Shown one piece after another: positions 988 to 42,086 of a DNA stretch of 44,708 nt (the stretch's first letter is position 1; each line of letters opens with the position of its first letter). Both the position numbers and the translations under genes were made by a program. The notes below the pieces were generated by a model. The model had not been told where the DNA came from. It was given only the letters and a program-made list of their open reading frames with translations, and searched no databases. This DNA is from a virus, in the IMG/VR virus record IMGVR_UViG_3300035698_016251, positions 1-44,708 of that record; one strand, written 5' to 3'.

Positions 988-1162
988 CCGGAAACGATTA
1001 CGTAAATTTAAGAATAAAGTCAAGCGATTACAACGTTTGATTGGGCATCATTTAAGACATCCAGATCAGGCAAGATGCTCATGCTTCATGTGCCGTTCAA
1101 GGAAGTATAGACAGGATAGAAAAAAAGTAAAAGCACAATGGAAAAAGGAGAATGAATTATAA
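980..1162 (+). CDS. Small highly basic protein with CxCxxC motif
   Basis: 60 residues, more than a third Lys or Arg, with CSCFMC at about residues 33-38. The charge suggests nucleic-acid binding; the cysteines could bind a metal. It overlaps the upstream gene by eight bases and its stop shares a base with the next ATG (TAATG), so the three genes are translationally coupled. No family recognised. Confidence 0.6.
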   Translation: MINRKRLRKFKNKVKRLQRLIGHHLRHPDQARCSCFMCRSRKYRQDRKKVKAQWKKENEL

Positions 1163-1962
1163 TGAATAAGCCAATACAGAGACACTTGGATCAAAAAAAC
1201 TCTATGGAATATTGGTGGGAAAAAGTAAAAGAAATAGTCCTTAACACACCTGCCTCAACTCCATATACTCTGGCACTTGAAATGACTGATGAAGAGTATA
1301 CTGACTACTGCTATCATAAATTTAATAGTGGCTTCCTTCAAGCATTGTCAACTAAGATTAGTGAACTGATACTAAATGATTCTGTGCTGGATTATCCAGT
1401 ATTTATGCGGACTTCCCTGTCCTCCTGTAAACATGAATGGAAAGATACCTGCTTCGTAAAGGACAAAGAAACGTTGCAACATAATTTATTTCATTTATTA
1501 GAAGGGGATCTTCTAAAAATGATGCCAGTTCCAAGTGTGATATTCATCAGAGAAATATTCGATTTGGAGCATACTTTCAAAGCGTTTAATGATATGCCCA
1601 TCGCTAAAGAATTTAGAGTCTTTAGTGAAGACGGTCACATGAGACATTTCCAACCTTACTGGATACCTGATTCAATTAAGGATCCAAGCATTGATAATTG
1701 GAAAGATGAATTAAAAAAGATGCATCATATTGATGATCTGGATAAAGATTTAATTGTCAGTGTGGCAAATCAAATTACAAAAGAAATTGGTGGACATTGG
1801 AGTATAGACTTTTGCTTGACAACTAAAGGTGAATGGTACGTTACTGATATGGCATTAGGGGGCTGTAGTTTTAAGTGGGAACCCCTAAGGTACGATTGGA
1901 GTTTTGAAACAAGTTATAAACAAGGAGTGACTGAGTTTGATAATTTTATTAACAAAATATAA
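1162..1962 (+). CDS. ATP-grasp-like protein (R2K/D123 type)
   Basis: 266 residues. The C-terminal two thirds resemble phage ATP-grasp proteins: VFMRTSLSS near residue 86, the IREIFDL...AFNDMPIAKEFRVF stretch around 129-154 with the Glu-Phe-Arg typical of the ATP site, and WSIDFCLTTKGEWYVTDMALG around 213-233 with the acidic metal ligands. Enzymes of this fold join a carboxylate to an amine or thiol using ATP; the substrate here is unknown. Start has GGAG eleven bases upstream and overlaps the previous stop (TAATG). Family call rests on recalled motif pattern and could be wrong; a remote kinase-like fold is the alternative. Confidence 0.55.
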   Translation: MNKPIQRHLDQKNSMEYWWEKVKEIVLNTPASTPYTLALEMTDEEYTDYCYHKFNSGFLQALSTKISELILNDSVLDYPVFMRTSLSSCKHEWKDTCFVKDKETLQHNLFHLLEGDLLKMMPVPSVIFIREIFDLEHTFKAFNDMPIAKEFRVFSEDGHMRHFQPYWIPDSIKDPSIDNWKDELKKMHHIDDLDKDLIVSVANQITKEIGGHWSIDFCLTTKGEWYVTDMALGGCSFKWEPLRYDWSFETSYKQGVTEFDNFINKI

Positions 1963-5558: not shown

Positions 5559-6467
5559 TTAATCAGTGCCTCTGGTTTTGGTTTTGGTTTTGAGGATCAT
5601 CTTATAACCTCCAGACTCCTCTATTTGTTGTGCTACAATTGCATCATAATTCTTTTTGCGTTTCAATTTGTTTGCTCGGAATGGTTTGTAATTTACATAG
5701 TGATGAATACGCCCATATCTCATTACCAGTTTGGATACATCAGGGTGCACCCTGACTTGCATTTCCGATTTAGGATAAGTGCCCTCCCTTGCATAAAACT
5801 CCCCTGTATTGCCACCTTTAACTGTTTGTGTAGCCATTTTGCCCTGTAAAAAAGTATTAAATTGAATTGTGCAATATCCTCCTTTCAAAATATCCAGACT
5901 CAGTATTGTATCCTCATTATATCGACCACGCCAACAATAAGGAATATCATTACGAATAAGATTACATGAGTATATTCGTGTGTTAAATACTATTGCTGGG
6001 TACTTCTGTTTAGATGCCACAAATCCACGATAATTTGGTCCTGCCATATAAACATTTGTATATCTCAAACAGAAGTCCTCCATTACCCTGAATGGCATAC
6101 CTCCATTTATTCTAATTCTTTTATTATGATGATACCTGAAAAACTGGTTTATATTATCATCCATTGTCCAGTGCCAATCATAACCCTCTCTGATTGAATG
6201 CTCCCACAGGAAGTTTCTAGCAGGTCCGGGTCCAGTGCTTTTTGTGCGCCCTAGATCATCGCACAACTCATATTTATCTTTGTATGATTCATCAAGAATT
6301 AGTAATGTAACAAATGGATTATCTTTAGTTGCTTGTTTATACTGCTTGTATTCCTGCTCTTCAATGACCAGTGTATGTGGTAATTTGGAAAGACTCAATG
6401 CATTACTGGTTAGCCTCACATCATAACGACCTTTGCTTGGAATATATATGGGAAATCTGTTTAGCAC
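5559..6467 (-). CDS. TET-associated glycosyltransferase (TAGT family)
   Basis: 302 residues. Members of this family, related to the C-terminal domain of GREB1, transfer a sugar to hydroxymethylated bases in phage DNA. Landmarks: IPSKGR at residues 9-14, GPGPARN around 79-85, WTMDDN with the metal-binding acids at 100-105, a TNVYMAGPNY strand around 137-146, WRGRYNEDT at 179-187, and KGGNT at 217-221, followed by HPDVSKL and GRIHHYVNYKPFR. The length is complete. Start is GTG overlapping the upstream radical SAM stop by one base (TAGTG), so it is the last gene of a coupled three-gene operon. Sugar donor and target base cannot be told from the sequence. Confidence 0.85.
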   Translation of the reverse strand: MLNRFPIYIPSKGRYDVRLTSNALSLSKLPHTLVIEEQEYKQYKQATKDNPFVTLLILDESYKDKYELCDDLGRTKSTGPGPARNFLWEHSIREGYDWHWTMDDNINQFFRYHHNKRIRINGGMPFRVMEDFCLRYTNVYMAGPNYRGFVASKQKYPAIVFNTRIYSCNLIRNDIPYCWRGRYNEDTILSLDILKGGYCTIQFNTFLQGKMATQTVKGGNTGEFYAREGTYPKSEMQVRVHPDVSKLVMRYGRIHHYVNYKPFRANKLKRKKNYDAIVAQQIEESGGYKMILKTKTKTRGTD

Positions 6468-7486
6468 TATTCATCCTCTGTGAAATCTTTCCATCCATCA
6501 TCATAGTAACAACTTACTTGCTCATCTTTCCAGTGCCTGAAATCGCATCTTGAAAATGTAATATTGCATTTAGCATAGGCAAATAAAGTTCCTGCTCTGT
6601 CCTTTTCTCGTAAACGCCTTCTGATTATCTGCATATTTTTTCCGAACCAGAAATTATAAAATCCATCTATGCCAGTATTCACGTTTCCAAACATCCCTGC
6701 ACTTAACTGCATTCCATCTTGACAACACAGTAAATATGAACCGTCTGAAGCTACAGTTACATAAAGGAAAGGCTGATTACAACGTCTGGTTAATGGTTTT
6801 AAAAGGGGCTTCATGCCAAATCGCTTTCCACGCTCCCAATCTAAATTCCCATACCAGTTGCCTAGCAAGCCAGCACGGAACCGTGATTGAGGCCACTTCT
6901 CCGGTGGATCCATCAATACAATCATTTTCACATGTGGGCCATAATATTTCCATGGCGTAGGCATTCCGGGTTTAGGATCATAATACTGAAAGAAAGGATA
7001 ACCGGATTTCTGTGCAAGTGCCTCAAATTCTTCATGCGTTCCATACTGGTCAACATAAATAATATTTGCGCCAGCGTTTAGTAAATCCTTAAAGGTGTAT
7101 TTTCCTTTACGTAATAATACTCCATTTGTTGTTATTTGAATTTGTACTAAGGGTGCTAATTTTCTAGCTATCGAAAGAAACTCTGGCAAATGATCATTTA
7201 ATGTTGGCTCCCCAACATAGCCACATATATCAACTCTAACCGATGGTGATACCTTGTTCATGATTGTGAATGCAGAAATCCATGTTTTCTTATTCATTGC
7301 AAGATGCTTTTTGGTATCAATCAACCCGGCGCAACAATGTCCACACTTTAAATTACAACCAAAATATGGCTCTATTGACCAGACCCAAGGTGACATATTC
7401 CCCAATGTTTTTATCTTTTTGATAGATTTAAGATTAGGGAAACCCTCATTCTGTGGATAAAACTTTATTCTGGTTGATTGGGTCAT
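6467..7486 (-). CDS. Radical SAM protein with SPASM-like C-terminus
   Basis: 339 residues. The radical SAM cluster motif is C-x3-C-x2-C at residues 44, 48 and 51 (GCNLKCGHCC). A further glycine motif (GYVGEP) falls where GGEP normally sits, a variant. The C-terminal region carries extra cysteines (RRCNQP, LLCCQDG, KCNI, SRCDFRHW) likely to bind an auxiliary cluster. Radical SAM proteins abstract a hydrogen from a substrate carbon; sandwiched between ParB-domain and TAGT genes, the likely substrate is a modified base or its sugar, by inference. Start overlaps the ParB stop by four bases (ATGA). Confidence 0.85.
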   Translation of the reverse strand: MTQSTRIKFYPQNEGFPNLKSIKKIKTLGNMSPWVWSIEPYFGCNLKCGHCCAGLIDTKKHLAMNKKTWISAFTIMNKVSPSVRVDICGYVGEPTLNDHLPEFLSIARKLAPLVQIQITTNGVLLRKGKYTFKDLLNAGANIIYVDQYGTHEEFEALAQKSGYPFFQYYDPKPGMPTPWKYYGPHVKMIVLMDPPEKWPQSRFRAGLLGNWYGNLDWERGKRFGMKPLLKPLTRRCNQPFLYVTVASDGSYLLCCQDGMQLSAGMFGNVNTGIDGFYNFWFGKNMQIIRRRLREKDRAGTLFAYAKCNITFSRCDFRHWKDEQVSCYYDDGWKDFTEDE

Positions 7487-8109
7487 GATTCATCATCTTC
7501 ATAGCTGCTATTTTTTAACACATGATCCGCAACAAATGGATACCAGACTGATTTTGTCTTAGGAGTAATTTTCTGCTCTATTAATTTAGCAAATTCTTGA
7601 ACATCAGTATCATTCTTAAATGAAACTATTACCTGCCTTTGCGGAGATTTATCCTCTGATTCAAAATCAGGCATACTCTCCCACTCGTCATTGGCTAATG
7701 TAATTCCAGAAGTCAATTCATCCAGCATCAACTCTTCAAAATCCTCTTCTAACATTTCCTCTTGAATTTCCTCTAACAAGGGATCTAACTTTTCCATGTC
7801 AAATGTGCCTTGAATATTTGGGTTGTTCAAGGTGATATTGAGAATGCGCTCTTCTGATTCAGGGAGATCAACTAGTAAGACATCTACTTCTTCTATGCCC
7901 TCTGCTATCATCGCAGCTAATCGCTGGTGTCCTGATATGACAGTGTCAGTAGATTCATTGATGACAATGAGATCAACTATACCAAAACGGCGGATGCTGG
8001 CTCTGAGACCTGCTATAGCCTCTGGAGTTATGTTTCTGGGGTTGTATGGTGCTGGTTTTAGGGTTGATATTTTTCTTTTTACTATTTTGTGTGATTTTTG
8101 TTCTGGCAT
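7483..8109 (-). CDS. ParB/Srx-domain protein (nuclease-like, no HTH seen)
   Basis: 208 residues. N-terminal ParB/sulfiredoxin fold: STLKPAPYNPRNI at 15-27, LRASIRRFGIVDLIVIN at 35-51 and SGHQRLAA at 59-66, in place of the GERR box of segregation ParB proteins. After NITLNNPNIQG (91-101) comes an acidic helical tail and a conserved-looking KSVWYPF near 190. No helix-turn-helix is apparent, so it is not a plasmid-type centromere-binding ParB. Such domains recur beside phage DNA-modification and methylase genes. First gene of the minus-strand operon; AAAGGA precedes the ATG, and a 19-bp dyad lies between it and its promoter. Confidence 0.85.
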   Translation of the reverse strand: MPEQKSHKIVKRKISTLKPAPYNPRNITPEAIAGLRASIRRFGIVDLIVINESTDTVISGHQRLAAMIAEGIEEVDVLLVDLPESEERILNITLNNPNIQGTFDMEKLDPLLEEIQEEMLEEDFEELMLDELTSGITLANDEWESMPDFESEDKSPQRQVIVSFKNDTDVQEFAKLIEQKITPKTKSVWYPFVADHVLKNSSYEDDES

Positions 8110-8128
8110 TTTTAGGTTCCTTTATGGA

Positions 8129-8147
8129 TTACAGGAAGTTCCTGTAA
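8129..8147. promoter_or_regulatory. 19-bp operator-like perfect dyad
   Basis: TTACAGGAAGTTCCTGTAA: nine-base perfect arms around a single central base. It lies in the leader of the ParB-radical SAM-TAGT operon, between the promoter at 8173-8202 and the start codon at 8109, a position where a bound dimeric repressor would block elongation. The protein that binds it is unknown. Confidence 0.55.
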
Positions 8148-8172
8148 CGCCGGGATGATATGTACTGTGTTC

Positions 8173-8202
8173 ATTGTAGCATAAAAAGATGATATTTGTA
8201 AA
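8173..8202 (-). promoter_or_regulatory. Sigma-70 promoter of the ParB-rSAM-TAGT operon
   Basis: Read on the minus strand: TTTACA (8202-8197), an 18-base spacer, TACAAT (8178-8173). Transcription would begin near 8166, giving a leader of about 55 bases that contains the 19-bp dyad. Confidence 0.6.
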
Positions 8203-8256
8203 CTTTTAAATACTGAGGGTTTTTAAAGGCATGAAATAGGACAGGATGATCTTGGG

Positions 8257-8735
8257 AGTAGTGGTCCCATGTTATACTCGTATTTATGCTGATTACAGTG
8301 TTTTGGGACCGGCTGGAAAAGTAGTGGTCTGTGTGGTGGTCTCACTCAAATGTTGATAAAAGCAAGGAGAAACAAGGTTTTGGACCGGCTTTTCTTATAC
8401 ACGTGAGGAGGATCAAATTTTTTATTTTTTTTTTTTTGAAAAACGTCAATATAGTGGTCTTGCCGGTCTCAAAATCTGAAAAGATACTAGAAATGCGAGT
8501 CACAAAGGCATATTCCCAGACCGGTACTCTTATATCATCGTGGTCATCATATTCTGCTATACAGGGAATCATCATGCTCCAAGCATTGGTTAGTAAGTGT
8601 AAATGAGAATAAAAATATACAGAACCTCATCCTGTATATACTCCATATAAGAAAAAATAAATCCTGTATATAAAATTTGTTGAAAGATTTAAATTTTTCG
8701 GAGTTACAATACCCTGTTATTACGGGACCACTACT
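8257..8735. repeat. Dispersed repeat family (AGTAGTGGTCYC and GGACCGGC types)
   Basis: AGTAGTGGTCCC at 8257-8268 is repeated as its exact reverse complement at 8724-8735. Related copies: AGTAGTGGTCT at 8320-8330, GTGGTGGTCTC near 8333-8343, ATAGTGGTCTTG at 8451-8462 and CGTGGTCATC at 8539-8548. A second sub-family carries ACCGGC or its complement: 8305-8313 (GGGACCGGC), 8381-8390, 8462-8470 (GCCGGTCTC) and 8518-8525 (AGACCGGT). All share a GGTC/GACC core and look like multiple binding sites for one protein. Confidence 0.6.
8629..8672. repeat. 12-bp direct repeat ATCCTGTATATA, two copies
   Basis: Exact copies at 8629-8640 and 8661-8672, with a start-to-start distance of 32 bases, about three helical turns. 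Weaker relatives CCCTGTATCATCC (8775-8787) and ATCTGTATATAAT (8895-8907) continue toward the terminase promoter. The spacing would place bound proteins on one face of the DNA. Confidence 0.5.
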
Positions 8736-8845
8736 TTAAAAACGTGCTGGTCGCAAATGCTGTAATACAATATACCCTGTATCATCCTTGTATAAACAAC
8801 AGGGCAAGAGAGGTGGATCGTTCATGTGGGGTTATGAAGTAGAAG

Positions 8846-8861
8846 TGTTTCACGTGAAACA
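8846..8861. promoter_or_regulatory. parS-type centromere site (perfect 16-bp palindrome)
   Basis: TGTTTCACGTGAAACA, a perfect palindrome identical to the consensus site bound by chromosomal ParB (Spo0J) in most bacteria. A chance match of 16 fixed bases in 45 kb is very unlikely. It lies in non-coding DNA some 70 bases upstream of the terminase promoter. The phage's own ParB-domain protein lacks a visible HTH and the GERR box, so host ParB is the more likely binder. Confidence 0.8.
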
Positions 8862-8930
8862 AATTTTGTAGGGAGTTTAAACAAACCTTGAATAATCTGT
8901 ATATAATTCCTCTTTTAATTCTAGTAAACC

Positions 8931-8959
8931 TTTACAAAATCTCGCATATAATATATACT
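8931..8959 (+). promoter_or_regulatory. Sigma-70 promoter upstream of terminase small subunit
   Basis: TTTACA (8931-8936), 17-base spacer, TATACT (8954-8959). Transcription would begin near 8966, which leaves a 27-base leader before the GTG at 8993 and is one reason for choosing that start. A second TATAAT at 8947-8952 overlaps. Confidence 0.55.
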
Positions 8960-8992
8960 TACTCTGTAGTTAGTTAAGTGGAGTGGGTCTCT

Positions 8993-9628
8993 GTGAAATC
9001 AAAAAGAGCATCAAAATATGACTGGGCAGCTATTAAAAATGACTACCTGCAAGGTTTCAGTTGGAAAGAAATAGAAACTAAATATGGGATATCAGCTGCT
9101 GGATTGAATCAGAAAGTTAAAAAAGAAGACTGGAAAACTCAAAAGGCTGATTTCCAAATGAAGTTAGCTAAGAAAACTTTAGCCAAGAGAACCGGCGTAA
9201 CTGTCAAAACTTTAAAAGAATTTAATTTGAAAGCAGAGCAATCATGCGATGTCAGTATAGCCTTAGTCCGTAATCAAATCATTCGATTGTCTAACGAGGA
9301 ACGAAAAGCAAAGGAGGATAAAAAGGTATATGAATTGGATCCAGATTATCTAGGTAAATTATCCAAGATTGCTGAAATGGTAATGAATCTAAAATATAGG
9401 ATACTTGGATACAATCCTCCACCGGGTTTTGGTATGGGTGCTCATGGTGATGGGCATCAATTACCAGATGATATTGAAGGGGAATATATGGAGTTGGATG
9501 TTGATGCTTCTAAAGGTAATGAAACAATTGAACTCTATAATGAGTTGCAAAGAAAGAGCGAGGCATTGGAAGAGGAAAAGATAAAACTTTTACAAGTGGA
9601 GAATAGTAGTGAGCCGAAGAAAACGTAG
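8993..9628 (+). CDS. terS: Terminase small subunit
   Basis: 211 residues when started at GTG 8993, which has GGAG nine bases upstream; an in-frame GTG at 8978 has no ribosome site and would lie almost at the transcription start. Binds phage DNA and loads the packaging motor. The N-terminus is a helix-turn-helix (YDWAAIKNDYLQGFSWKEIETKYGIS layout with GISAAGLNQKV as recognition helix), followed by a helical oligomerisation region and a charged C-terminal tail, the usual small-terminase order. Its partner, the large subunit, lies 6.5 kb downstream past a block of tailoring genes, an unusual separation. Confidence 0.75.
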   Translation: MKSKRASKYDWAAIKNDYLQGFSWKEIETKYGISAAGLNQKVKKEDWKTQKADFQMKLAKKTLAKRTGVTVKTLKEFNLKAEQSCDVSIALVRNQIIRLSNEERKAKEDKKVYELDPDYLGKLSKIAEMVMNLKYRILGYNPPPGFGMGAHGDGHQLPDDIEGEYMELDVDASKGNETIELYNELQRKSEALEEEKIKLLQVENSSEPKKT

Positions 9629-10328
9629 AAAGTCTGCTATCATTCATAGAAGAAAACTTCTGACAGTCAGAATAGGTAATTTATTTAAGCCTATTCCAGA
9701 TGTCAGTTGCTCCTCTCTTAAATTCCCTGAAGATGTTTATTTGTTAGGATCGGGACCAAATGGTATTGAGCATTATTCCAGTATTCCTAAAGGTTCTTAT
9801 GTTGTGGCAGTCAATAAGGCTGTGTTAATTCCTTCTGTCTTGCCAGTGTTATTTGATATTAACGCATGGATAATTGCAGACTACAATGTAATCCAGACCC
9901 CATATTATTTAGATGTTAGAAATAAATTCACTGGCACTAAGATATACAGTATGGAAGCAGCTCTTAGAGATAAAGTATTTGGCAAGGATGATTTGCCAAG
10001 TTATACTTTTTTTCAACATCCAAGATCAACCCGGTGTTTCATATATAGAGTTGGCATGGATGATTACCAGATGGAGGGTACAGTTGGCTCTATTGCTATT
10101 CAAGTTTTAGCAAGGAAAGGAGTCAAGAGAATTAAGGTGTGTGGTTTCGATGTTTCAGGTGATATAGATTTTCAAGGGGAGTTGCCAAAGGATCATAGGC
10201 ACGGCTCCGTTTGGAAAGCATCTAAATTTTTTGACAGTACAATCAGTTACTTTCAATCGCAGGGAATTGAGATTAGTTCTTTAAGTGAAACTAAGTTACA
10301 ATTATTACAGAGTGCTGAGATTAGATAG
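9609..10328 (+). CDS. DUF115/MptE-like or sialyltransferase-like Rossmannoid protein
   Basis: 239 residues from a GTG with GGAG seven bases upstream. VYLLGSGPN at 43-51 is a nucleotide-binding loop, and GTVGSIAIQVLARKGVKRIKV at 157-177 followed by CGFDVSGD resembles the second half of DUF115/MptE and GT42 (CstI/CstII) proteins, which bind CMP- or other nucleotide-linked donors. The N-terminal 20 residues are strongly basic, as in the neighbouring genes starting at 14038 and 14775. It overlaps terS by 20 bases. Likely a sugar-nucleotide-dependent transferase, substrate unknown. Confidence 0.55.
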   Translation: MSRRKRRKSAIIHRRKLLTVRIGNLFKPIPDVSCSSLKFPEDVYLLGSGPNGIEHYSSIPKGSYVVAVNKAVLIPSVLPVLFDINAWIIADYNVIQTPYYLDVRNKFTGTKIYSMEAALRDKVFGKDDLPSYTFFQHPRSTRCFIYRVGMDDYQMEGTVGSIAIQVLARKGVKRIKVCGFDVSGDIDFQGELPKDHRHGSVWKASKFFDSTISYFQSQGIEISSLSETKLQLLQSAEIR

Positions 10329-10333
10329 ATTGG

Positions 10334-10361
10334 TAGGGGGATCATTAATTTGGTCCCTCTA
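10334..10361 (+). promoter_or_regulatory. Intergenic stem-loop before glycosyltransferase gene
   Basis: A ten-pair stem including two G-U pairs (left arm from 10334, right arm ending 10361) around an eight-base loop. No T-run follows, so it is not an ordinary terminator. It sits 16 bases before the next start codon in one of the few gaps of the tailoring cassette and could mark an RNA processing or attenuation site. Confidence 0.35.
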
Positions 10362-10377
10362 TTAGCAGGAGAACATT

Positions 10378-11040
10378 ATGTTACCCACAATTGCATATCT
10401 TTCCTTAGTCAATAACTCTCTGTATGCCAGACAGGCAGTTGTTAATGCCTATTTCCAAAAGTATCCTAATGAGAAGAAAACTATCTATTTGATTCATGAT
10501 TATCAAATGGCACCTGTGTTTTCAGATATTATAATTGTACAAAATTTATTTTTAAATAAGCAACTATTAGATAACAGTTGGTGGGCAAGAAAGATTGAGT
10601 TGGCACTACAAAGTATTCAAGAGGAGTACATAGTTTGGTGGGATTCAGATGATTTATATGAGCCTGAATACACAAGAAAGATTTCAGATTTCTTTAAATT
10701 GAATTCTCAATTTTCAATGGCATGGAATCATAACATGATTGACGTTAATCAAAAGGGAGTTTTATTTAAATCTTTTTCCAGTGGTATTGGTACTTTAGCT
10801 ATTAGGACTGATGTATTAAAAAGTATTTTTCCCATATTTCTTAAAAAATATCCAGAGCGAGTTTCTTTTAGTAATAAGAAAAAACTTTTTATCCCATTGG
10901 ATTTCTCCTTTAGAAAATTTATTGAGAATAAATACAAGAGAGTTTTAGGTGAAGGTGATTGGATAAGGGCGTATGTGAATCATCCTAAATCTTTTAGTGC
11001 AATGACAAATTCAGATGTAAAAAAGGAAACTATATTATGA
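10378..11040 (+). CDS. GT-A-type glycosyltransferase-like protein
   Basis: 220 residues. IAYLSLVNN...ARQAVVNAYFQKYP near the start, and YIVWWDSDDLYEPEYTRKI at 84-102 with the acidic DSDD that would bind metal and nucleotide-sugar in GT-A enzymes. It is a paralogue of the gene at 15525: both share the NHxx and GTL patterns, a VLK-x7-LKK-x-YP block, an LD-x-FRK-x-IE-x-KY block and a similar tail. AGGAG lies upstream of the ATG; the end overlaps the next gene by four bases. Acceptor unknown. Confidence 0.65.
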   Translation: MLPTIAYLSLVNNSLYARQAVVNAYFQKYPNEKKTIYLIHDYQMAPVFSDIIIVQNLFLNKQLLDNSWWARKIELALQSIQEEYIVWWDSDDLYEPEYTRKISDFFKLNSQFSMAWNHNMIDVNQKGVLFKSFSSGIGTLAIRTDVLKSIFPIFLKKYPERVSFSNKKKLFIPLDFSFRKFIENKYKRVLGEGDWIRAYVNHPKSFSAMTNSDVKKETIL

Positions 11041-12026
11041 GAAATAGGAAGCATCGTTTACATTTGAAGAATAATCCTAGAAAAATTGGTAAGGGCACTG
11101 TGTTCTTAAAGCAATGCAGAGAGTTCAATTGGATAGCTGAGGTTTTTAAAAAAGCAGGGTGGACTGTATATACTGGAGCGCACAATAGCCATGCACCTTT
11201 AGGCTTGGAACTTTATTTTATGTGGGCTGGCTCTAAATACTCACATGTTGACACAGTGAAAAAACTTAAAAAAGGTGGGGGCAGAGTAATTTATGGGGAG
11301 CATGGATGGCTGCCACAGCAAGAGTCATTCTATTTAGATGCTAAAGGAACCGGAGTGTCTTCCAGTTTGATGGATATGAAGTTAGAGGGGGATCTTACAG
11401 ATAAGCAGAAAACCTTACTGCGTGGTTTGATTGTCAGATATAAGTCTTTGATGGTTTCTAGTGATATTAAAATTCGATATGATGATAAATTTGATAGAGA
11501 TTTGATAGTACTCGTGCCTCTGCAGAAAGAAGGTGATGATCGAATCATAAGAACCAGTCCATTTAAAACCATGAAGGCTTTTCTTATGAGGTTGACTCTT
11601 ATTAAAGGAGTTCATTTCATAGTTAAGATGCATCCAAGAGAGCAAAGACATTTGAAATTAGTGAGAGAATTTGGGAGTGGATTAAATTTTACCTTTCTCC
11701 CATTTAATTGTGATTTAGGTTCCTTGTTGGATACTGTTGATCATGTTATGACTATTAATTCAACAACTGGCATTGAAGGATTAGCATGGGGCAAGAGCGT
11801 AAGTACATTTGGAGAATCTATCTATACTCGTGTTGGATTAGTTAATCAACTTGAGCATGGACAGGCTATCATGAAAGAAGATTTAATGAGTTGTGAAAAA
11901 GATCCAGACATGATAGATGTTTTCCTGTATAATTTATTTAAAAGGCAATTACTGAAATCAGATGTTAATCATCCTGATTTTATTGAACGATTATTAGATA
12001 ACAATTTTACTAAGGTAGGTATGTAA
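11037..12026 (+). CDS. Capsule-synthesis (KpsC/KpsS-like) GT-B glycosyltransferase
   Basis: 329 residues. EHGWLPQ at 88-94, VLVPLQKEGDDRI at 158-170, the VKMHPRE loop at 196-202 and INSTTGIEGLAWGKSVSTFG at 240-259 are the marks of the capsule-synthesis family that builds Kdo linkers on bacterial capsule. In phages such proteins could add sugars to DNA bases or to virion or host glycans. Overlaps the next ATG by one base (TAATG). Confidence 0.65.
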   Translation: MRNRKHRLHLKNNPRKIGKGTVFLKQCREFNWIAEVFKKAGWTVYTGAHNSHAPLGLELYFMWAGSKYSHVDTVKKLKKGGGRVIYGEHGWLPQQESFYLDAKGTGVSSSLMDMKLEGDLTDKQKTLLRGLIVRYKSLMVSSDIKIRYDDKFDRDLIVLVPLQKEGDDRIIRTSPFKTMKAFLMRLTLIKGVHFIVKMHPREQRHLKLVREFGSGLNFTFLPFNCDLGSLLDTVDHVMTINSTTGIEGLAWGKSVSTFGESIYTRVGLVNQLEHGQAIMKEDLMSCEKDPDMIDVFLYNLFKRQLLKSDVNHPDFIERLLDNNFTKVGM

Positions 12027-12667
12027 TGGCAGATCATTTAAGAAATCCTTGGGTAGTGGAGGATTCAGACATAGGTTTATTTAAAAAAGTTTTGGAAGAG
12101 TTAGTCCAGAGACATCCAAAAGAAACTTTAAATATTTTAGAATGGGGCGCAGGTGGGAGCACTTATTACTATACTAAGTTTCTGAAGGAAAAGGGAATTG
12201 ATTTTAAGTGGTTAGCAGTTGAGCATGACAAAGGATGGAGCAAAAGAGTAAATGATATTTTGGAATTCCCAATTAAAGTGGGGGCAGTGTTTCCTGAGCA
12301 ATGGGCTTTTGTGCAATGGATCCAGCAGGTAGCACCTTATCTTAAGGTCCCATTTCCAAATGTTCCAGAGTATAATCCGAAATATAATTATTATAAATAT
12401 CCAAGACATTTTTTAGATGTATGTAATGTTCCCGGATTTCATTTAATTTATATTGATGGCAGATTTCGTTCCAGATGTTTGAAGGAGACACTGACACTTC
12501 TTTTAGATTCAGGGATCATAGTTATGGATAATGCAGAAAGAGCATGGTATCAGAAAGCAATCAGTGAGTGCTCTTTAAAGAATAAATTTATTAAGCCCCA
12601 TTGGTGGATTGCAGATTCCATAGGGAGTCATTTCATTAATTCAGTTGGAAAGAAGAATATCCTTTAG
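12026..12667 (+). CDS. Class I SAM-dependent methyltransferase-like protein
   Basis: 213 residues. Motif I is ILEWGAGGST at 37-46; VEHDKGW at 65-71 supplies the acidic end of strand 2; IDGRFRSRC at 143-151 and GIIVMDNAER at 163-172 are later strands as in small-molecule and sugar methyltransferases. Not a DNA-methylase motif set (no NPPY or PCQ). Placed among glycosyltransferases, it probably methylates a sugar or modified nucleotide. Confidence 0.6.
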   Translation: MADHLRNPWVVEDSDIGLFKKVLEELVQRHPKETLNILEWGAGGSTYYYTKFLKEKGIDFKWLAVEHDKGWSKRVNDILEFPIKVGAVFPEQWAFVQWIQQVAPYLKVPFPNVPEYNPKYNYYKYPRHFLDVCNVPGFHLIYIDGRFRSRCLKETLTLLLDSGIIVMDNAERAWYQKAISECSLKNKFIKPHWWIADSIGSHFINSVGKKNIL

Positions 12668-12690
12668 TGAGGCATGAATAAGGAGAAAAG

Positions 12691-13452
12691 ATGGATTATC
12701 CATTTAGGAATATAGGATTTATAATTACTCAGAAGTGTAATAAATTATGCAAAGGTTGTGGGCTTCTTATCTCCTCTGTAAAAGACCGTAAAGATACAAC
12801 TTATGCAGAGTTCCAAAAAGCAATTGAATGTACTTCTAATGAGTTTAAGGAGAGTGGAAAAACAGTTGTAATAACCGGGGGAGAGCCACTAATCCATCCT
12901 GACATTGAGCAAATAGTTATTGATTGTTTGGATAATTTCTCTAATTCCAAAGTTCAAGTCTTAACAAATGGGAAAAAATTTCCTGAATTTGTACATCTTT
13001 TAGATATTGATGATAGGGTTCATATTAGAATATCAGAATATCCCGGATGGAATGATGATATTATTAATAAATATGTTGATTTCCACAAGAATATATTGAT
13101 ATTTAGGTATGGTGGATTCTGGAAACCTGATTTAGATTTTCTAATTCCAGATATGGATGTGGCATTGGATAGGGCTATCAAATGTGGTTCTGGTGGATGT
13201 ATTAGATTTTTTAAAGATAAAGTTTATTATTGTTGTGCTGGTGAAATGTTAGAACGATTACATCCTTCAATGGACTTAGGAGTATCAGTTAAATCTGGAT
13301 GGGAAGAGGATATGAAAGATATTACCTTTTGGGAAGGATGTAGTAAATGTTTTGTAGCCAGTGCTAGAAGTTTATATCTACAATATTCAAGTGATCAAGA
13401 AAAAATAGTTCAATCAACTACACATTGTAGTATGGAAGAAGGAGATGAATAA
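12691..13452 (+). CDS. Radical SAM protein
   Basis: 253 residues. C-x3-C-x2-C at 16, 20 and 23 (CNKLCKGC), TGGEPLIHPDI at 62-72, and later cysteines (KCGSGGC, YYCCAGE, GCSKC) that could bind a second cluster. It begins after a 23-base gap with AAGGAG upstream, and ends in a one-base overlap with the next gene. A second radical SAM enzyme beside that of the TAGT operon; the two share only the cluster motif. Substrate unknown. Confidence 0.8.
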   Translation: MDYPFRNIGFIITQKCNKLCKGCGLLISSVKDRKDTTYAEFQKAIECTSNEFKESGKTVVITGGEPLIHPDIEQIVIDCLDNFSNSKVQVLTNGKKFPEFVHLLDIDDRVHIRISEYPGWNDDIINKYVDFHKNILIFRYGGFWKPDLDFLIPDMDVALDRAIKCGSGGCIRFFKDKVYYCCAGEMLERLHPSMDLGVSVKSGWEEDMKDITFWEGCSKCFVASARSLYLQYSSDQEKIVQSTTHCSMEEGDE

Positions 13453-14045
13453 TGCCAAGTTCAAGACCAGACACAATAATTCCAGTCTTAGATTTTGTCC
13501 GTGCCACTCAACCTAAAAGTATTCTTGATATAGGAATGGGGGATGGTTTCTATGGAATTCTTTTTCGCAGGGAGTTAGATGGCAATGTTATTATTGATAA
13601 GGGATTTCATAAACCGGAGTCATGGGATGTCCATATAAAGGGGATTGAAATTTTTTCTTCTTATATAACAAAAGCTCATGAATATGCCTACAATGAGATT
13701 AAGATTGGTAATATCTTAGATGATTTTGATGATTTAATTGAGCAAAATGAGAAGTATGATTTGATTTTTATGGGTGATGTAATTGAGCATATGGAGAAGT
13801 CAGATGGCATTAAGATTTTACTTAAACTCAAAAAACATTTAAATAGCAACAAACATATTCTTGTTGTTACTCCTAATTATAAAACTCAATGGCATCAAGA
13901 GATTGCAGGAAACAAACATGAGGCGCATTTATCTTTATGGAACATTAAAGATTTTGAATACGGATTTTGGCATGAGCGTGGTTTGAATTGCCGAGCCAGT
14001 ATTGTAGGGAAAAAACTCTTAGGCAGGTTCCAGAGGAATGGATAG
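13452..14045 (+). CDS. Class I SAM-dependent methyltransferase-like protein
   Basis: 197 residues. Motif I ILDIGMGDG at 24-32, and DLIFMGDVIEHMEK at 103-116, the typical motif II-III region of UbiE/COQ5-like or sugar methyltransferases, then HILVVTPN for strand 5. The region between is short. Together with its neighbours it fits a sugar- or nucleotide-tailoring set. Overlaps the next gene by eight bases. Confidence 0.75.
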   Translation: MPSSRPDTIIPVLDFVRATQPKSILDIGMGDGFYGILFRRELDGNVIIDKGFHKPESWDVHIKGIEIFSSYITKAHEYAYNEIKIGNILDDFDDLIEQNEKYDLIFMGDVIEHMEKSDGIKILLKLKKHLNSNKHILVVTPNYKTQWHQEIAGNKHEAHLSLWNIKDFEYGFWHERGLNCRASIVGKKLLGRFQRNG

Positions 14046-14778
14046 ACTACCAATTGACAGAGCTCCATATTCTTTGAAGGTCGGTTTTGTTAGTAATATG
14101 AAAGTAAGACAGCGAAATAGAAGGAAGAGAGCACAGATATTTCCAGAAGCAAATGAGATAGCTGCAATGGTAGTGAACTATAAAACAAGGGATCTGATTG
14201 CAAGGTCAGTATTGGCTTTCAGGACATACTATCCTAATATTCATTTGTTGATTGTGGATGGTTCCAGTTATGATGACAGCACTGATTGGGTATATGAGTT
14301 TTGTCAAAGAGATCAAAATTCCACTATGATTGCCTGTAATTTCAATATTCATCATGGACCCGGAATGGATCTGGGCTTGAGTGTTTTAAATTACAAATAC
14401 GTTTATATTTTTGATAGTGACACTTTTTTAAATAAAGATTCCATATTAGAAACGATGTTCAAATCAGTGAAGAGGGAATCCGCATGGTATGGTGTAGGGA
14501 ATATAGTAGGTGTGCAAGGTAATGGCATGGATGATGAAATTGATGGGTTTGCTTATCTTCATCCAAGATGCATGTTAATACAGAGGAGCTTCTATTTCAA
14601 ATTCAAACCTTTTTTAAAGCATGGGGCACCTTGCATTCATACAATGACTCAATTAAGAGATAGGGAGTTGGCATACCTTTTAAAAGATTTTGATGTTGAT
14701 GCTTTTTTAGATGTGGATCACGGCTTATTAAAAACCTGTCAAAGATATGGATACGATTTAAGAAGGGAAAGAAAATGA
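14038..14778 (+). CDS. Family 2-like glycosyltransferase
   Basis: 246 residues. After a basic leader (residues 21-33), AAMVVNYKTRDLIARSVLAF at 42-61 and IHLLIVDGSSYDDSTDW at 68-84 form the GT2 donor-binding half, and YIFDSDTF at 123-130 the DSD metal site. The C-terminal half is short and lacks the QxxRW motif of processive enzymes, so it would add single sugars. Tightly overlapped on both sides. Confidence 0.75.
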   Translation: MDRLPIDRAPYSLKVGFVSNMKVRQRNRRKRAQIFPEANEIAAMVVNYKTRDLIARSVLAFRTYYPNIHLLIVDGSSYDDSTDWVYEFCQRDQNSTMIACNFNIHHGPGMDLGLSVLNYKYVYIFDSDTFLNKDSILETMFKSVKRESAWYGVGNIVGVQGNGMDDEIDGFAYLHPRCMLIQRSFYFKFKPFLKHGAPCIHTMTQLRDRELAYLLKDFDVDAFLDVDHGLLKTCQRYGYDLRRERK

Positions 14779-15524
14779 GTCTAAGAAGGAAACGAAAAAA
14801 GATTAAGACTAAAATTGAGAACAAAGTTGTATCTGATGCTCCTTTGATTCAAGAAACTTTAAATTTACCAACAGTAAAGGAACCTAAAATTTTATTAAAA
14901 GACCAAAAGATATTATCTGTAGTGACAAGGCACATGCCACTTAAAAGGAAAGATTCTTTTAAACGTATGATGGATACTCTTTCACCTATGCAGGATCAAA
15001 TTCAACATATTGTAATAGAGGATAGAGTCTGTTCCGGCTGGAGGCAGTCAGCACAATTAGTTGTTGACAAAAGAAAAGAAGTTACTGGATATTATGTTTG
15101 GTTGCTAGATGATGACGATGAATGTACCGCTTCTCACTTGCCACTTATTTTAGAGCGGGTAAGAAATCTTTATGATGTGGATATAATTATTGTCAAGGCG
15201 TGGATGCAGAGGCATGGAATAGTTCCAGTTGCAGAATATTGGAATTCCCATGATATATTTAAATTTGTTGCTTGCACTATTGGGATGCCATGTTTCATTT
15301 TAAAGAATGAATTATTCCAAAGGCATGTATTAGATATGCCAACTGCGGATAGATGGGTTGACTGGCAATTTTTTTCATCAGTTCAAAAAGGAATTAAGAA
15401 GTATAACTATAAATGGATGTTCTTGGATCTTTTAGTAATGAGACAAGCGACTAAATTATTTGGGACAGAGGAAAAGTTTAATAGAGAGGATCCTGAATTT
15501 AAAATTTTATATGGTGGTGGATAA
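14775..15524 (+). CDS. GT-A-like glycosyltransferase
   Basis: 249 residues. A very basic N-terminus (RRKRKKIKTK), then ILSVVTRHMPLKRKDSFKRMM at 46-66 and YVWLLDDDDE at 107-116, the acidic metal/nucleotide site. The C-terminal domain is unlike the other three. Starts four bases inside the previous gene and abuts the next. Confidence 0.6.
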   Translation: MSLRRKRKKIKTKIENKVVSDAPLIQETLNLPTVKEPKILLKDQKILSVVTRHMPLKRKDSFKRMMDTLSPMQDQIQHIVIEDRVCSGWRQSAQLVVDKRKEVTGYYVWLLDDDDECTASHLPLILERVRNLYDVDIIIVKAWMQRHGIVPVAEYWNSHDIFKFVACTIGMPCFILKNELFQRHVLDMPTADRWVDWQFFSSVQKGIKKYNYKWMFLDLLVMRQATKLFGTEEKFNREDPEFKILYGGG

Positions 15525-16184
15525 ATGACAGAGGGATTGACAGTAGCCTATTTAACTTTAACATGGAACCCTATCAATATGAGACATGCTATTATCAGTG
15601 TGTTGAACCAAGATTATCCTGATAAGTTGAAAAAACTTTATTTGATGTGCCAAGAACCTTACCCTGATAAAATCATTCATTCAATGCCTTTTGAAATTGA
15701 ACAAATAAATGTTGCTGGTAAATGGGGGGCTTTGTGGTTCCTGAAATTACAGGAATTCAGCAAAGTAGTGAAAGAGGATATTGTGATTACATGGGATGAA
15801 GATGATAGATTCAAATTTGATTATACTCAGAAAGCCCTCTTACCATTTACAGAATTCTTTTCCTGTGATGCTACTTACAATCATCATTCTCATTGGGTAA
15901 AGAAATCAGGATTTTTTTATCAGGATTTAAAAGAGCCTTCCGGGACCCTGTGTTATAGACCAGAAGTTTTAAAAAAGTGTTTACCTCTTTTGAAAGAGGC
16001 GTATCCTAATTTAGAATCACGCCCAAATCATCCGTTGGATACTCCTTTTAGAAGAATGATAGAAGCCAAATATACAGTGAGAACTCATGAGGGTGAACGG
16101 TTCTGGATGTTTCATAGCAACCAGACAAGTAATCTAGTCCATGCACCAAACAGGTTAGTACAAGAGCATTTAGATCATGACTAA
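15525..16184 (+). CDS. GT-A-type glycosyltransferase-like protein (paralogue of 10378 gene)
   Basis: 219 residues. VAYLTLTWNPINMRHAIISVLNQDYP opening, ITWDEDD at 88-94 as acidic site, SGTLCYRPEVLKKC and PLDTPFRRMIEAKY blocks in the same order as the gene at 10378. The two flank the cassette, suggesting an old duplication. It overlaps the large terminase gene by eight bases. Acceptor unknown. Confidence 0.65.
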   Translation: MTEGLTVAYLTLTWNPINMRHAIISVLNQDYPDKLKKLYLMCQEPYPDKIIHSMPFEIEQINVAGKWGALWFLKLQEFSKVVKEDIVITWDEDDRFKFDYTQKALLPFTEFFSCDATYNHHSHWVKKSGFFYQDLKEPSGTLCYRPEVLKKCLPLLKEAYPNLESRPNHPLDTPFRRMIEAKYTVRTHEGERFWMFHSNQTSNLVHAPNRLVQEHLDHD

Positions 16185-17688
16185 ATTTTCTAAATTTCAA
16201 GTCAAAAAAAAGATTGCACATCTTTTAAGGCACCCAAACGCTAAGTTTAAGGATTTGGCGGAGTTCTGCTTTCGAGATACCAAAACTCAATTAAAAATTT
16301 TATTGGCAGAGCATCATTTGAGGATGCATAACTTTATTGACCGGGCACACTCGCGGGGTTATGCAAATGTGGCAATTGAAGCTCATATTGAATCAGGTAA
16401 AACGCAAACAATAGCGGTACAAAGAGCATCAAGAGAAGTAGGAAATGACAAGAATATTCGTATCAGAATTTGTTCAGCAAATGATGGAATTGCAGTTTTA
16501 AGAGTAGGGGCTATTGGTAATATAATCAGGTACAATGAAAATTATAAATTAGTATATCCAAAAATAAAACCTTCAAGTAAATGGGGGGAATCAGCATTTA
16601 GAGTAGAAGGTACTCCAATTGAATCAACCGATTATACAGTGCAAGGTGCAGGAGTAAATAGCTCTGTTCTAGGTGGTGGTACTGACTTATTAATTTTTGA
16701 TGATCCTTGTGATTTAAAGAATAGTTTAAATGTCCATGTGCAAAAGAAAACTATCCTGATGATCCGGCAAATGTGGCTGTCCAGAGTGAGGAGAGGGGGA
16801 CGTGTCTGGTGGATAGGGACCCCAATGCATAGAAAAGATGCCATGAAAGTTATCACTAAACGATGGCAAAGATTATCCATGCCAGTTAAAGAGGATCTCA
16901 CTTGCATGGAAGTTTATGAGAATGATTTAAAGGTGGATGAAATTCCCTTATGGTCATTGAAGAATGCACAAATGATGAAGGATTATAAAAGAGAGTTTGG
17001 TAGTACTAACTTCAATGCAAACTTTAGATTGATTCCATTCAGTGAGGAGCTAAGTCTGTTCCAGCATTTTGATCAATGTGTTAGATATAATATTGATCCA
17101 AGAACCTTAAAATTTAAAGCGATGTATGGGGGAGTTGACATGTCCTCAAAAACCAGAGCTGGAACTGTTTTAATACTTGTAGGAATTACTATGGATGATG
17201 TGAAAGTTCCAGTTGAGGTAGTGTATATTGATGATCCAATTAAAATTGAAAGAGTGCTTGTTGGGTGGAAAGCAAAGTATGGTAAAGCAAAACAAGGCAC
17301 TGATTTAATTCGATTTCTTCATGTGGAAAATAACTCAATGCAGGATGTTTTAGTTGACATCTTGAAAGGCAAACGAATACTGCCAATTAAAGAATTTTTA
17401 ACTGGCAGAAATAAAGCGGATCCTTATGTAGGATTGCAATCGATGGATGTTGAGTTTGAAAATGGATACTGGCAAATCTGTGTGCCACATCCAAAAGACA
17501 GCGAATGCAATTGTGCCTTTTGCAAGTTGGTAGATTCAATGTCCATTTATCCAAATGGAATGCAGACAGATGATGTGATGGCATTCTGGTTTGCAAGGGA
17601 AGCATGTAGATGGGACTACAAGAAGCCAGCCCCTCCTTATGTTGAGACTGAGAAATTAGAGAGTGCAGGGATACTTCAGGGGTACTAA
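16177..17688 (+). CDS. terL: Terminase large subunit (ATPase/nuclease)
   Basis: 503 residues, normal for the family. The ATP-driven packaging motor that also cuts DNA. The Walker A position reads EAHIESGKTQT (68-78), a deviant loop with the Gly-Lys-Thr kept; Walker B with catalytic acid is LLIFDDP (171-177); the coupling motif is WWIGTPMHR (211-219). The RNase H-like nuclease has D321 in YGGVDMSS and a terminal acid in QTDDVMAFW near residue 465. The frame overlaps the preceding glycosyltransferase, so terL is transcribed with the tailoring cassette. Confidence 0.88.
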   Translation: MTKFSKFQVKKKIAHLLRHPNAKFKDLAEFCFRDTKTQLKILLAEHHLRMHNFIDRAHSRGYANVAIEAHIESGKTQTIAVQRASREVGNDKNIRIRICSANDGIAVLRVGAIGNIIRYNENYKLVYPKIKPSSKWGESAFRVEGTPIESTDYTVQGAGVNSSVLGGGTDLLIFDDPCDLKNSLNVHVQKKTILMIRQMWLSRVRRGGRVWWIGTPMHRKDAMKVITKRWQRLSMPVKEDLTCMEVYENDLKVDEIPLWSLKNAQMMKDYKREFGSTNFNANFRLIPFSEELSLFQHFDQCVRYNIDPRTLKFKAMYGGVDMSSKTRAGTVLILVGITMDDVKVPVEVVYIDDPIKIERVLVGWKAKYGKAKQGTDLIRFLHVENNSMQDVLVDILKGKRILPIKEFLTGRNKADPYVGLQSMDVEFENGYWQICVPHPKDSECNCAFCKLVDSMSIYPNGMQTDDVMAFWFAREACRWDYKKPAPPYVETEKLESAGILQGY

Positions 17689-41179: not shown

Positions 41180-41572
41180 TTATTTATTAAAGCAAAGTGG
41201 AAGATGAATTCTATCAGGATAATTCTTTTGTTCAATGATAAATTGTGACTCTGGTATCCCTGTATTTGGTTCCTTCTTATGCTGAATTGCAAATTTCCAA
41301 GGACAATGTTTTGCCCATATTATTAATAAATTTTCATTCATATTTATGAGTATGTTAAAAGGTTTACTGTCTAATTCTTTGAGGGATAAAGGAGCCAAAT
41401 CATATCTATGATAAAAACCTTTTGTGATTCTCCCCTGTGCTAGGACTAATTCATCATTTAAAAGATACTCACATATTGATCCATTTTCATTAAGGATTAA
41501 CTCAATTTCAAATGAACTATTCGTATTTCTAATGATCCAAGTCTTTTGTATTATATATGGAGGCTTAAACAT
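41180..41572 (-). CDS. Hypothetical protein
   Basis: 130 residues, beta-rich N-terminal half (YIIQKTWIIRNTNSSFEIELILN), no family recognised. Last gene of the minus-strand operon, overlapping the upstream gene by eight bases. Confidence 0.6.
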   Translation of the reverse strand: MFKPPYIIQKTWIIRNTNSSFEIELILNENGSICEYLLNDELVLAQGRITKGFYHRYDLAPLSLKELDSKPFNILINMNENLLIIWAKHCPWKFAIQHKKEPNTGIPESQFIIEQKNYPDRIHLPLCFNK

Positions 41573-42086
41573 TTTCTTTGTCCCAATCCTCCCCTTCCAT
41601 TGATAAATTTTCTTTATATGCCTGTCCTAGAATTAGAGCATAGACTGAAGCGTCATCACAGGAATCTTCAAATGATTCATTATGCAAAGTTTTATTTTTC
41701 AGACTGTTTTGGATCCTTCCAATTTTATCTTTGAACCTGTTAAAAATTCCTCTTAATCCTCCTCCTCTGAAATTAGACAACCAATCTGAATTCCCGGAGT
41801 AGTCTGAATTCTTTTGTGCAATCACAATACATAGATCAAATACTTTATGAGCAAACCAAAGCATATTTTCTGGCATTGGAATTTCATAAATACCTTCACC
41901 TTGTTTTTGTGCACCTAATATATTGCAATGAGTTGAAAATCCTTTCTCCCCTTGAATTGTGAATTCTGTTTTTTGAGTTACACCTATACGTTCCAATTTT
42001 TCTTCATCGAATTCTAATTTAGGATGTATGCCCTTTTTAAAATTTGAAGGACTATCGTTAATGACAGTAATATGAATTTTAAACAT
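41565..42086 (-). CDS. DUF1599/Nmad1-like protein
   Basis: 173 residues from the ATG at 42086, which has CTGGAGAG upstream; the frame is open further upstream but within the methyltransferase gene. The C-terminal half at 78-157 has the pattern HKVFDLCIVIAQKNSDYSGNSDWLSNF, RFKDKIGRIQN, NESFEDSCDDASVYALI, which matches the nucleotide-modification-associated domain (DUF1599). The N-terminal 70 residues are not recognised. Its neighbours and the TAGT operon suggest a role in making or sanitising a modified nucleotide. Confidence 0.55.
   Translation of the reverse strand: MFKIHITVINDSPSNFKKGIHPKLEFDEEKLERIGVTQKTEFTIQGEKGFSTHCNILGAQKQGEGIYEIPMPENMLWFAHKVFDLCIVIAQKNSDYSGNSDWLSNFRGGGLRGIFNRFKDKIGRIQNSLKNKTLHNESFEDSCDDASVYALILGQAYKENLSMEGEDWDKENV

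Follow-up and report, generated by a model that had tools for sequence, protein, structure and literature searches.

A few known phages glycosylate the proteins of their own particles, by other enzymes than the ones described here; to our knowledge, virion glycosylation has been addressed experimentally in few systems, mostly mycobacteriophages. TAGT proteins form a family of glycosyltransferases (GTs) acting on DNA bases. For modification of virion proteins, the cluster O mycobacteriophages (Corndog, Firecracker) offer the closest precedent: their late structural/head operon holds closely spaced genes for GTs and methyltransferase; in Firecracker, gp33-36 sit between portal gp32 and protease gp37. 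Methylation and glycosylation of the capsid have been proposed as the role of these enzymes (PMC4351075), and a 2024 article reports modification of both capsid and tail tube (PMC11600133, citing Freeman 2023). Jumbo phages and cyanophages carry polysaccharide cassettes, in which GT clusters are joined by tailoring enzymes; the cyanophage cassettes have been read as changing the outer polysaccharide (PMC7824862).

Here, we studied IMG/VR record IMGVR_UViG_3300035698_016251 (positions 1 to 44,708; a virus of bacteria), hereafter the window. As the original prediction held, nine genes lie between those for the small and large terminase subunits (terS and terL) at 9609-16184—confirmed at the same coordinates by the ORF list together with PHROG 1206 and PHROG 38. 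These consecutive, tightly packed plus-strand ORFs (p1 to p9) encode one Maf/GT42-like GT, four GT-A enzymes, one KpsC-like GT, two methyltransferase-like proteins and one radical SAM protein. Cluster O phages, in contrast, have four genes (an O-methyltransferase plus GTs) between portal and protease; none of them is annotated as Maf/GT42-like, KpsC-like or radical SAM, whereas the window cassette has all three. Moreover, the cluster O GTs are without detectable homology to p9: hhalign of the p9 profile against Firecracker gp34-36 returned a probability of <1% each. The cassette resembles those of jumbo phages and cyanophages in composition, but the latter do not lie between terminase genes. 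Its placement had been called unusual, which is apt for the terS-terL site but not for a GT and O-methyltransferase set in a head operon as such, given cluster O. Searches of open-licence literature returned no paper directly describing GT genes placed between terS and terL, or DUF115 in phages.

Gene content and predicted folds of the cassette

Table 1. Coordinates of the cassette, its terminase borders and the neighbouring TAGT module in the window.
Feature	Coordinates	Strand	Evidence
TAGT-family glycosyltransferase, separate neighbouring module	5559..6467	-	PF20691 1.4e-36; PHROG 842 1.2e-45
Radical SAM/SPASM-like protein of TAGT module	6467..7486	-	PF04055 2.9e-9; SPASM 0.0008 (sub-threshold)
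ParB-like protein of TAGT module	7483..8109	-	PHROG 620 5e-33
Terminase small subunit (terS), upstream border	8978..9628	+	PHROG 1206, 3.5e-7
p1: Maf / MptE (DUF115) / GT42-like transferase, basic N-terminal tail	9609..10328	+	AF2 fold, PF01973 in relatives
p2: GT-A glycosyltransferase, p9 paralogue	10378..11040	+	31% identity to p9; GT2 0.014; WDSDD
p3: KpsC-like (Capsule_synth, GT-B) putative ulosonic-acid (Kdo-type) transferase, basic N-terminal tail	11037..12026	+	PF05159 1.1e-12
p4: putative SAM methyltransferase (Methyltransf_24-like), tentative	12026..12667	+	PF13578 0.15; EWGAG motif
p5: radical SAM protein	12691..13452	+	PF04055 5.1e-8; CNKLCKGC cluster motif
p6: SAM methyltransferase	13452..14045	+	Methyltransf_23 1.3e-10
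p7: GT2-family GT-A glycosyltransferase, basic N-terminal tail	14038..14778	+	PF00535 5.5e-12
p8: GT-A-like glycosyltransferase, basic N-terminal tail	14775..15524	+	PF00535 0.0011; DDDD motif
p9: GT-A glycosyltransferase, p2 paralogue	15525..16184	+	AF2 fold; WDEDD motif
Terminase large subunit (terL), downstream border	16177..17688	+	PHROG 38, 2.6e-35

From terS to terL, the junctions measure -20, 49, -4, -1, 23, -1, -8, -4, 0 and -8 nt, a spacing from which we infer that cassette and terminase genes would share one transcript. Scans for consensus promoters and for terminators gave 55 promoter-like sites (44.0, sd 5.8, in shuffles) and six terminator-like sites (5.4, sd 1.9). A mobile insertion between flanking repeats was considered and rejected: direct repeats within 8600-17000 look like chance matches, and none of the 20 repeat families listed out of 49 flanks the cassette. 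All nine ORFs are intact, and the catalytic-type motifs, checked in eight of them, are present (WDSDD, WDEDD, DSD, DDDD, CxxxCxxC and SAM loops).

Four proteins exceeded their Pfam cut-offs: p3 (Capsule_synth, 48.6 bits versus 20; also matching KpsC 6mgd at 0.0012), p5 (Radical_SAM, 33.7 versus 29.5, its CxxxCxxC cluster present), p6 (41.7 versus 27) and p7 (Glycos_transf_2, 46.4 versus 23.3, with a weak likeness to PgaC). The matches of p8 and p2 to GT2 and of p4 to Methyltransf_24 fall below the cut-offs; the tentative call of p4 as a methyltransferase draws on this weak profile match and its EWGAG motif. Kinship of p4 with the methyltransferases of two records with p1-like genes (L091 and L092) was unconvincing at 18-24% identity. 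While p3 shares its family with the capsule Kdo transferase KpsC, it differs in being a single 329-aa domain, phage-borne and without lipid-acceptor partner enzymes.

The Pfam search returned no domain match for p9 and, for p1, no PF01973 match but solely a sub-threshold ThiF hit (0.16). The AF2 model of p1 (pLDDT 78) nevertheless matched Maf best (VIA Z 14.3, 5mu5), followed by MptE/HPPK (12.4, 8sd5) and CstII (12.2, 1ro8), and two p1 relatives in record L093 surpassed the MptE-like PF01973 cut-off (37.7 and 36.9 versus 34.6 bits). We thus model p1 as a Maf/MptE/GT42 fold, in line with the unobvious DUF115/GT42 call—and the other gene roles—made originally. The protein, a 239-aa core domain, is nonetheless only 12-15% identical to Maf, CstII and MptE in the alignments. 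Maf is a flagellin-glycosylation enzyme. The fold is about equally close to MptE, a pterin kinase, and to GT42. p9 models as a GT-A fold (pLDDT 80; best VIA Z 18.0 and 17.9, both to GT-A enzymes).

Related cassettes at shifting late positions

Single-protein scans of viral contigs with TerL and p3 found nothing, and relatives were therefore sought with p1 and p9 profiles. Genes resembling p1 emerged in six other records, in or beside late genes or heading a glycan cassette. In L092 the p1-like cassette lies upstream of terL and portal; in L095, p1-like genes flank terL, the second overlapping its stop by 29 nt and preceding the portal gene. The p1-like gene of L093 falls in the head-gene region, those of L091 and L040 lie behind tail and head genes, respectively (the latter a weak match, 1.9e-12), and a 261-kb record, L094, has a p1-headed glycan cassette with a radical SAM gene. 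The p9 profile matched four of the 24 records searched, all four of which also contained p1. L093 even encodes both in a single ORF, 41% identical to p1 and 31% to p9, so that fusion and co-occurrence alike indicate that p1 and p9 are linked.

One record, G045, is a true relative of the window phage, with synteny from portal (E = 5e-96) through protease (1e-73), major head protein (7e-48), tail tube (1e-72) and tape measure (6e-43) to a 945-aa tail protein (9e-166). It carries p1 and two p9 copies. Since its cassette follows the tail genes, and its presumed terS and terL overlap each other, the terS-terL position in the window is, judging from gene order, an accident of this lineage and not part of the function. 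The gene-order comparison proposed at the outset thus revealed cassettes recurring in late regions, but no conserved terS-terL site.

Searches of 50,697 phage records by tblastn gave no match for TerL, p1, p7, the second radical SAM protein, the L095 p1-like protein, p9 or the 945-aa tail protein; p3 had one, at 25%, in an unannotated 462-kb phage. Genome contigs scanned with the p1 and TerL profiles yielded none.

Might the nine genes instead be morons that arrived one by one, each with a minor function unconnected to the others, so that they form no common pathway and some may have decayed? The weak p4, the divergence of several families and a make-up that differs from phage to phage would fit, but the intact ORFs and motifs, the near-zero spacing, and the fusion and co-occurrence of p1 and p9 render this highly unlikely.

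Virion protein, DNA or host surface as acceptor

In the reading we prefer, and give about an even chance, the cassette enzymes assemble a glycan in the cytoplasm, are expressed late with packaging and head genes, and decorate the tail or capsid proteins of the phage itself. Enzyme activities, sugar identity, step order and protein acceptor are all inferred: one transferase would attach the first sugar to a side chain of the protein; p2, p7, p8 and p9, the GT-A enzymes, would extend it; p1 and p3 could contribute ulosonic-type sugars, acidic and CMP-activated, that the host provides; and p4 and p6 (methylation) and p5 (radical SAM chemistry) may tailor the sugars. Supporting this are the late-region p1-like genes, the p1-p9 linkage, G045, the Maf match and the cluster O precedent, as well as the lack of any convincing transmembrane stretch in the cassette proteins (KD19 peaks at 1.92, within the domain of p1).

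The last observation bears also on a host-surface role, in which the cassette would alter host polysaccharide or LPS, for instance against superinfection or re-adsorption to debris. The capsule-type p3, the weak likeness of p7 to PgaC and the interpretation of cyanophage cassettes cited above all suit such a role. Yet not only membrane segments are missing: the cassette has no Pfam family of a priming GT, flippase, polymerase or lipid-carrier enzyme, and its position implies late expression with packaging and head genes, leaving a host-surface target distinctly unlikely. A defence system was likewise rejected, because the PADLOC matches—viperin-like for both radical SAM proteins, mad2-like for p6—are weak and cover generic domain stretches only.

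Upstream of terS, on the minus strand, lies a separate ParB/radical SAM/TAGT module (5559-8109; TAGT, PF20691 126.8 bits versus a cut-off of 27.5), which the original prediction overlooked. The window thereby resembles TAGT/5-hydroxymethylpyrimidine DNA glycosylation systems, and this module is a better candidate for DNA-base modification than the cassette. By tblastn, TAGT matched 23 of the 50,697 phage records. Conceivably, the cassette extends a first sugar that TAGT places on a modified base, so that the genome would acquire a complex glycan shortly before it is packaged. Pyle's 2024 work reportedly concerns virus GTs placing diverse glycans on DNA, and TAGT adjoining terminase is widespread. 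Against this, all five records retrieved with the p1/p9 profiles (possibly fragments), syntenic G045 included, lack TAGT, while L001 (TAGT 72% and TerL 36% identical to the window's) has no cassette. The 44.7-kb record, which may itself be a fragment, contains no match to thymidylate synthase/hydroxymethylase (PF00303), C5 methylase (PF00145, Dcm family) or TET (PF12851, for which the search control was silent). Co-occurrence in relatives thus does not appear to tie the cassette to TAGT, and we consider a DNA target unlikely.

As TAGT is missing from those five records, and no enzyme that would make a hydroxymethyl base was matched in the window record, we favour virion proteins as the target. 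Where DNA, virion and host polysaccharide had been proposed side by side, the comparative evidence, including the late location of p1/p9 cassettes, tilts towards the virion. The TAGT-free records carry limited weight, however, since the window itself has TAGT, L040 combines it with its weak p1-like gene, and those five records were profile-found and may be incomplete. Also counting against virion proteins are the absence of a strongly Ser/Thr-rich C-terminus, as an acceptor tail, among the window's structural proteins, the lack of detectable homology between cluster O GTs and p9, and the equal nearness of MptE and GT42 to p1.

A new oddity weighs on both sides. Four cassette GTs spanning three unrelated folds have Lys/Arg-rich N-terminal tails, whose scores (p1, 9; p3, 7; p7, 7; p8, 8) are the four highest among the 36 proteins of at least 150 aa that the window encodes (P = 0.0021, post hoc; per-protein shuffles 0.0004, 0.017, 0.0064 and 0.0038, respectively). 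Such tails would suit DNA binding, holding the GTs on the genome, and to that extent speak against a protein acceptor. Alternatively, they may have been gained to dock the enzymes on a shared polyanion—genomic DNA or an acidic procapsid—where an acidic, methylated, radical-SAM-tailored oligosaccharide is assembled; assembly would coincide with packaging because the GTs are translated between terS and terL. We regard this packaging-coupled glycan factory as improbable. The tails do open a direct test of the acceptor, virion versus DNA. With its Maf-like, KpsC-like and radical SAM members, a nine-enzyme set that recurs at shifting late positions in uncultured phages, once with p1 and p9 fused, suggests that elaborate acidic glycans may occur more widely among phages.

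Gene order and content around the terminase genes

The record, classified in IMG/VR as linear with 44,708 bases, bears out the original prediction that nine genes separate the two terminase subunits: nine plus-strand ORFs (p1–p9) fill 9609-16184, with junction spacings from terS to terL of -20, 49, -4, -1, 23, -1, -8, -4, 0 and -8 nt. The least secure assignment is that of p4, drawn from a Pfam match of 0.15 plus one motif only. No report of a nine-enzyme terS–terL insert with such a family mix emerged among the open-licence papers searched, and tblastn of p1, p7 and p9 against 50,697 phage records gave no match. In phages of Microbacterium and Arthrobacter, PMC7302621 and PMC5513430 describe genes inserted between those for terminase and portal.

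Features of the terminase region and cassette (TAGT, DNA-base glycosyltransferase family; GT, glycosyltransferase)
Feature	Position	Strand	Assignment or location
ParB, radical SAM, TAGT	5559-8109	-	TAGT module
terS	8978-9628	+	PHROG 1206
p1	cassette ORF 1	+	Maf/MptE/GT42-like
p2	cassette ORF 2	+	GT-A
p3	cassette ORF 3	+	KpsC-like
p4	cassette ORF 4	+	probable methyltransferase
p5	cassette ORF 5	+	radical SAM
p6	cassette ORF 6	+	methyltransferase
p7	cassette ORF 7	+	GT2
p8	cassette ORF 8	+	GT-A-like
p9	cassette ORF 9	+	GT-A, paralogue of p2
terL	16177-17688	+	PHROG 38
Mu-type portal	18306	+	downstream of terL
MuF-like protein	19691	+	after portal
protease	21346	+	after MuF-like protein
major head protein	23328	+	after protease

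The 868-bp gap from the ParB gene to the terS gene (8110-8977) carries AGTAGTGGTCCC in perfect 12-nt inverted copies (8257-8268 / 8724-8735), plus related repeats, and is a possible regulatory or packaging site. At 1162-1962 (+) lies an R2K-clade ATP-grasp protein (PF14243, 26.3 bits, right at the family cut-off), of a family presented in excerpts of PMC7824862 as predicted protein modifiers. A 126-aa ORF at 42457-42837 (-), grouped with 41565-42269 (-), covers part of the 743-position DNA methyltransferase family phrog_67; this methyltransferase gene may be broken or split.

Recurrence of the cassette and its relation to TAGT

A p2+p9 profile retrieved two loci from other phage records, L091 and L092, and a p1 profile three further ones (L093–L095). 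The genes ahead of terL and portal in L092 comprise one p9-like and three p1-like genes, together with genes for a GT-like protein, a Methyltransf_24 protein and, by eye, two acetyltransferase-like proteins. In L095, a p1-like fragment and a presumed terS precede terL (PHROG 38, 5.4e-63); another p1-like gene, which shares 29 nt with terL, lies between terL and the portal gene. The 261-kb record of L094 has a cassette made up of GTs and a radical SAM, with p1 as its first gene. In L093, one ORF (8247-9815) joins a p1 domain (41% identity) and a p9 domain (31%) directly downstream of a presumed major head protein (itself without PHROG match), and the ORF after it combines a methyltransferase with two p1 domains. 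Across 8247-11578 of that locus, these adjacent multidomain ORFs amount to a cassette collapsed into two polypeptides.

Among records picked up non-randomly by p1, p9, TerL or TAGT profiles, p1 matched in 7 of the 27 searched and p9 in 4/24, all four also with p1; G054, G055 and G022 have p1 and lack p9. That the cassette genes are unrelated morons is quite improbable, as it would leave the p1–p9 fusion and this co-occurrence unexplained. TAGT was present in 2/7 records (the window and L001) and in none of the five found by p1/p9 profiles, the p1 and p9 profiles having been run against only part of the TAGT loci. G022, found via TAGT, holds a weak p1-like gene (1.9e-12) inside a GT cassette behind head genes, which counts against independence of cassette and TAGT. 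At its locus L040 (16999-20801), genes of p1-like, GT2 and fused GT-D–methyltransferase type follow the head genes, and the same phage also has TAGT.

Judged by sequence, the 53.7-kb record G045, which contains L091, is a true relative of the window: portal+MuF (5e-96), protease (1e-73), major head protein (7e-48), tail tube (1e-72), tape measure (6e-43) and a 945-aa tail protein (9e-166) match, and gene order from portal to tail is identical. Its ParB–DNA methyltransferase protein is followed by presumed terS and terL, overlapping with no gene in between; its terL gave no match to the window's at 1e-4, and a search of the record found no TAGT. L001, a 12-kb fragment with TAGT 72% and TerL 36% identical to the window's, reads ParB-TAGT-terS-terL with no insert, and profiles found neither p1 nor p9 in it. 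The gene-order comparison proposed in the original prediction places the p1/p9 cassette of G045 behind the tail genes. Together, G045 and L001 argue that cassette and TAGT are separable, and that placement between terS and terL is a trait of the window's lineage, not of cassette function.

The ParB adjoining terS in G045 (L099 12209-13552, -) forms a single protein with a DNA methyltransferase (phrog_498, 6e-118) and stands where the window has separate ParB, radical SAM and TAGT genes. In L091, a homologue of window 37447-38988 (+) is directly followed by p1, methyltransferases, two p9 copies and an amidase-like ORF (by eye). The window gene encodes a 513-aa protein, lipoprotein-like at its N-terminus by eye, that ends the tail genes; its homologues lie in G045 and G046, both records with p1/p9 cassettes, and it is a possible glycan acceptor.

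TAGT itself matched in 84 of 90 loci, with a ParB-like gene immediately upstream in 59 of the 81 placeable ones; a downstream ORF of at least 350 aa was found in 62/84, and the first such ORF matches a terminase large-subunit family in at least 41 of these 62. ParB–TAGT pairs adjoin terminase genes in many IMG/VR contigs (window; L001-L004, L011-L090). TET matched 0/44 TAGT records, the control for this profile also staying silent. With the window added, the TS family appeared in 1/45 records and C5 methylase in 4/45, the window matching neither.

Predicted enzymes and candidate targets

The p9 model (five natural homologues, pLDDT 80) had 6p61 as top Foldseek match (7.5e-10), and its first two VIA rows gave Z 18.0 and 17.9 over 191 and 181 aligned residues; by modelled fold, p9 is a GT-A enzyme. 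For the p1 model (nine sequences, pLDDT 78), the closest VIA match was Maf 5mu5 (Z 14.3, rmsd 3.7, 188 aligned), followed by MptE/HPPK 8sd5 (Z 12.4) and CstII 1ro8 (Z 12.2). A Pfam search of p1 itself returned no match to PF01973, the former DUF115; two L093 proteins carrying p1 domains pass its cut-off. Maf, GT42 and KpsC enzymes are known to use CMP-activated ulosonic sugars as donors, so the cassette glycan would be acidic.

Basic N-termini mark p1 (MSRRKRRK...), p8 (MSLRRKRKK...), p3 (MRNRKHRLHLK...) and p7 (RQRNRRKR, from residue 22). They are the four most basic among the 36 window proteins of at least 150 aa (hypergeometric 0.0021, post hoc), and in the full list of 59 three small ORFs score equal or higher. 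The p3 and p8 starts have a purine-rich stretch upstream and a 4-nt overlap with the preceding gene. L094 p1 also bears a long basic tail; the p1-like proteins of L092 and L095 have none. From these tails we infer that the GTs bearing them may share a polyanion as target. Tails and the neighbouring TAGT both speak for extension of a DNA glycan, which we nevertheless consider unlikely, and modification of the host surface is more doubtful still, the cassette being without membrane steps.

Glycosylation of virion proteins is the reading we hold with moderate confidence, on account of the late-region position, the separability from TAGT in profile-found records, the soluble enzymes, the Maf-like p1 fold and a precedent: cluster O mycobacteriophages carry GT and O-methyltransferase genes among their head genes. 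The Firecracker order is terminase gp31, portal gp32, O-methyltransferase gp33, gp34, GalNAc-transferase-like gp35, GT gp36, protease gp37 and capsid gp39. Excerpts of PMC4351075 place the cluster O genes between portal and protease and report their products as detected in infected cells, not assigned to virions, and able in principle to modify capsid; according to PMC11600133, which cites Freeman 2023, these enzymes modify capsid and tail tube.
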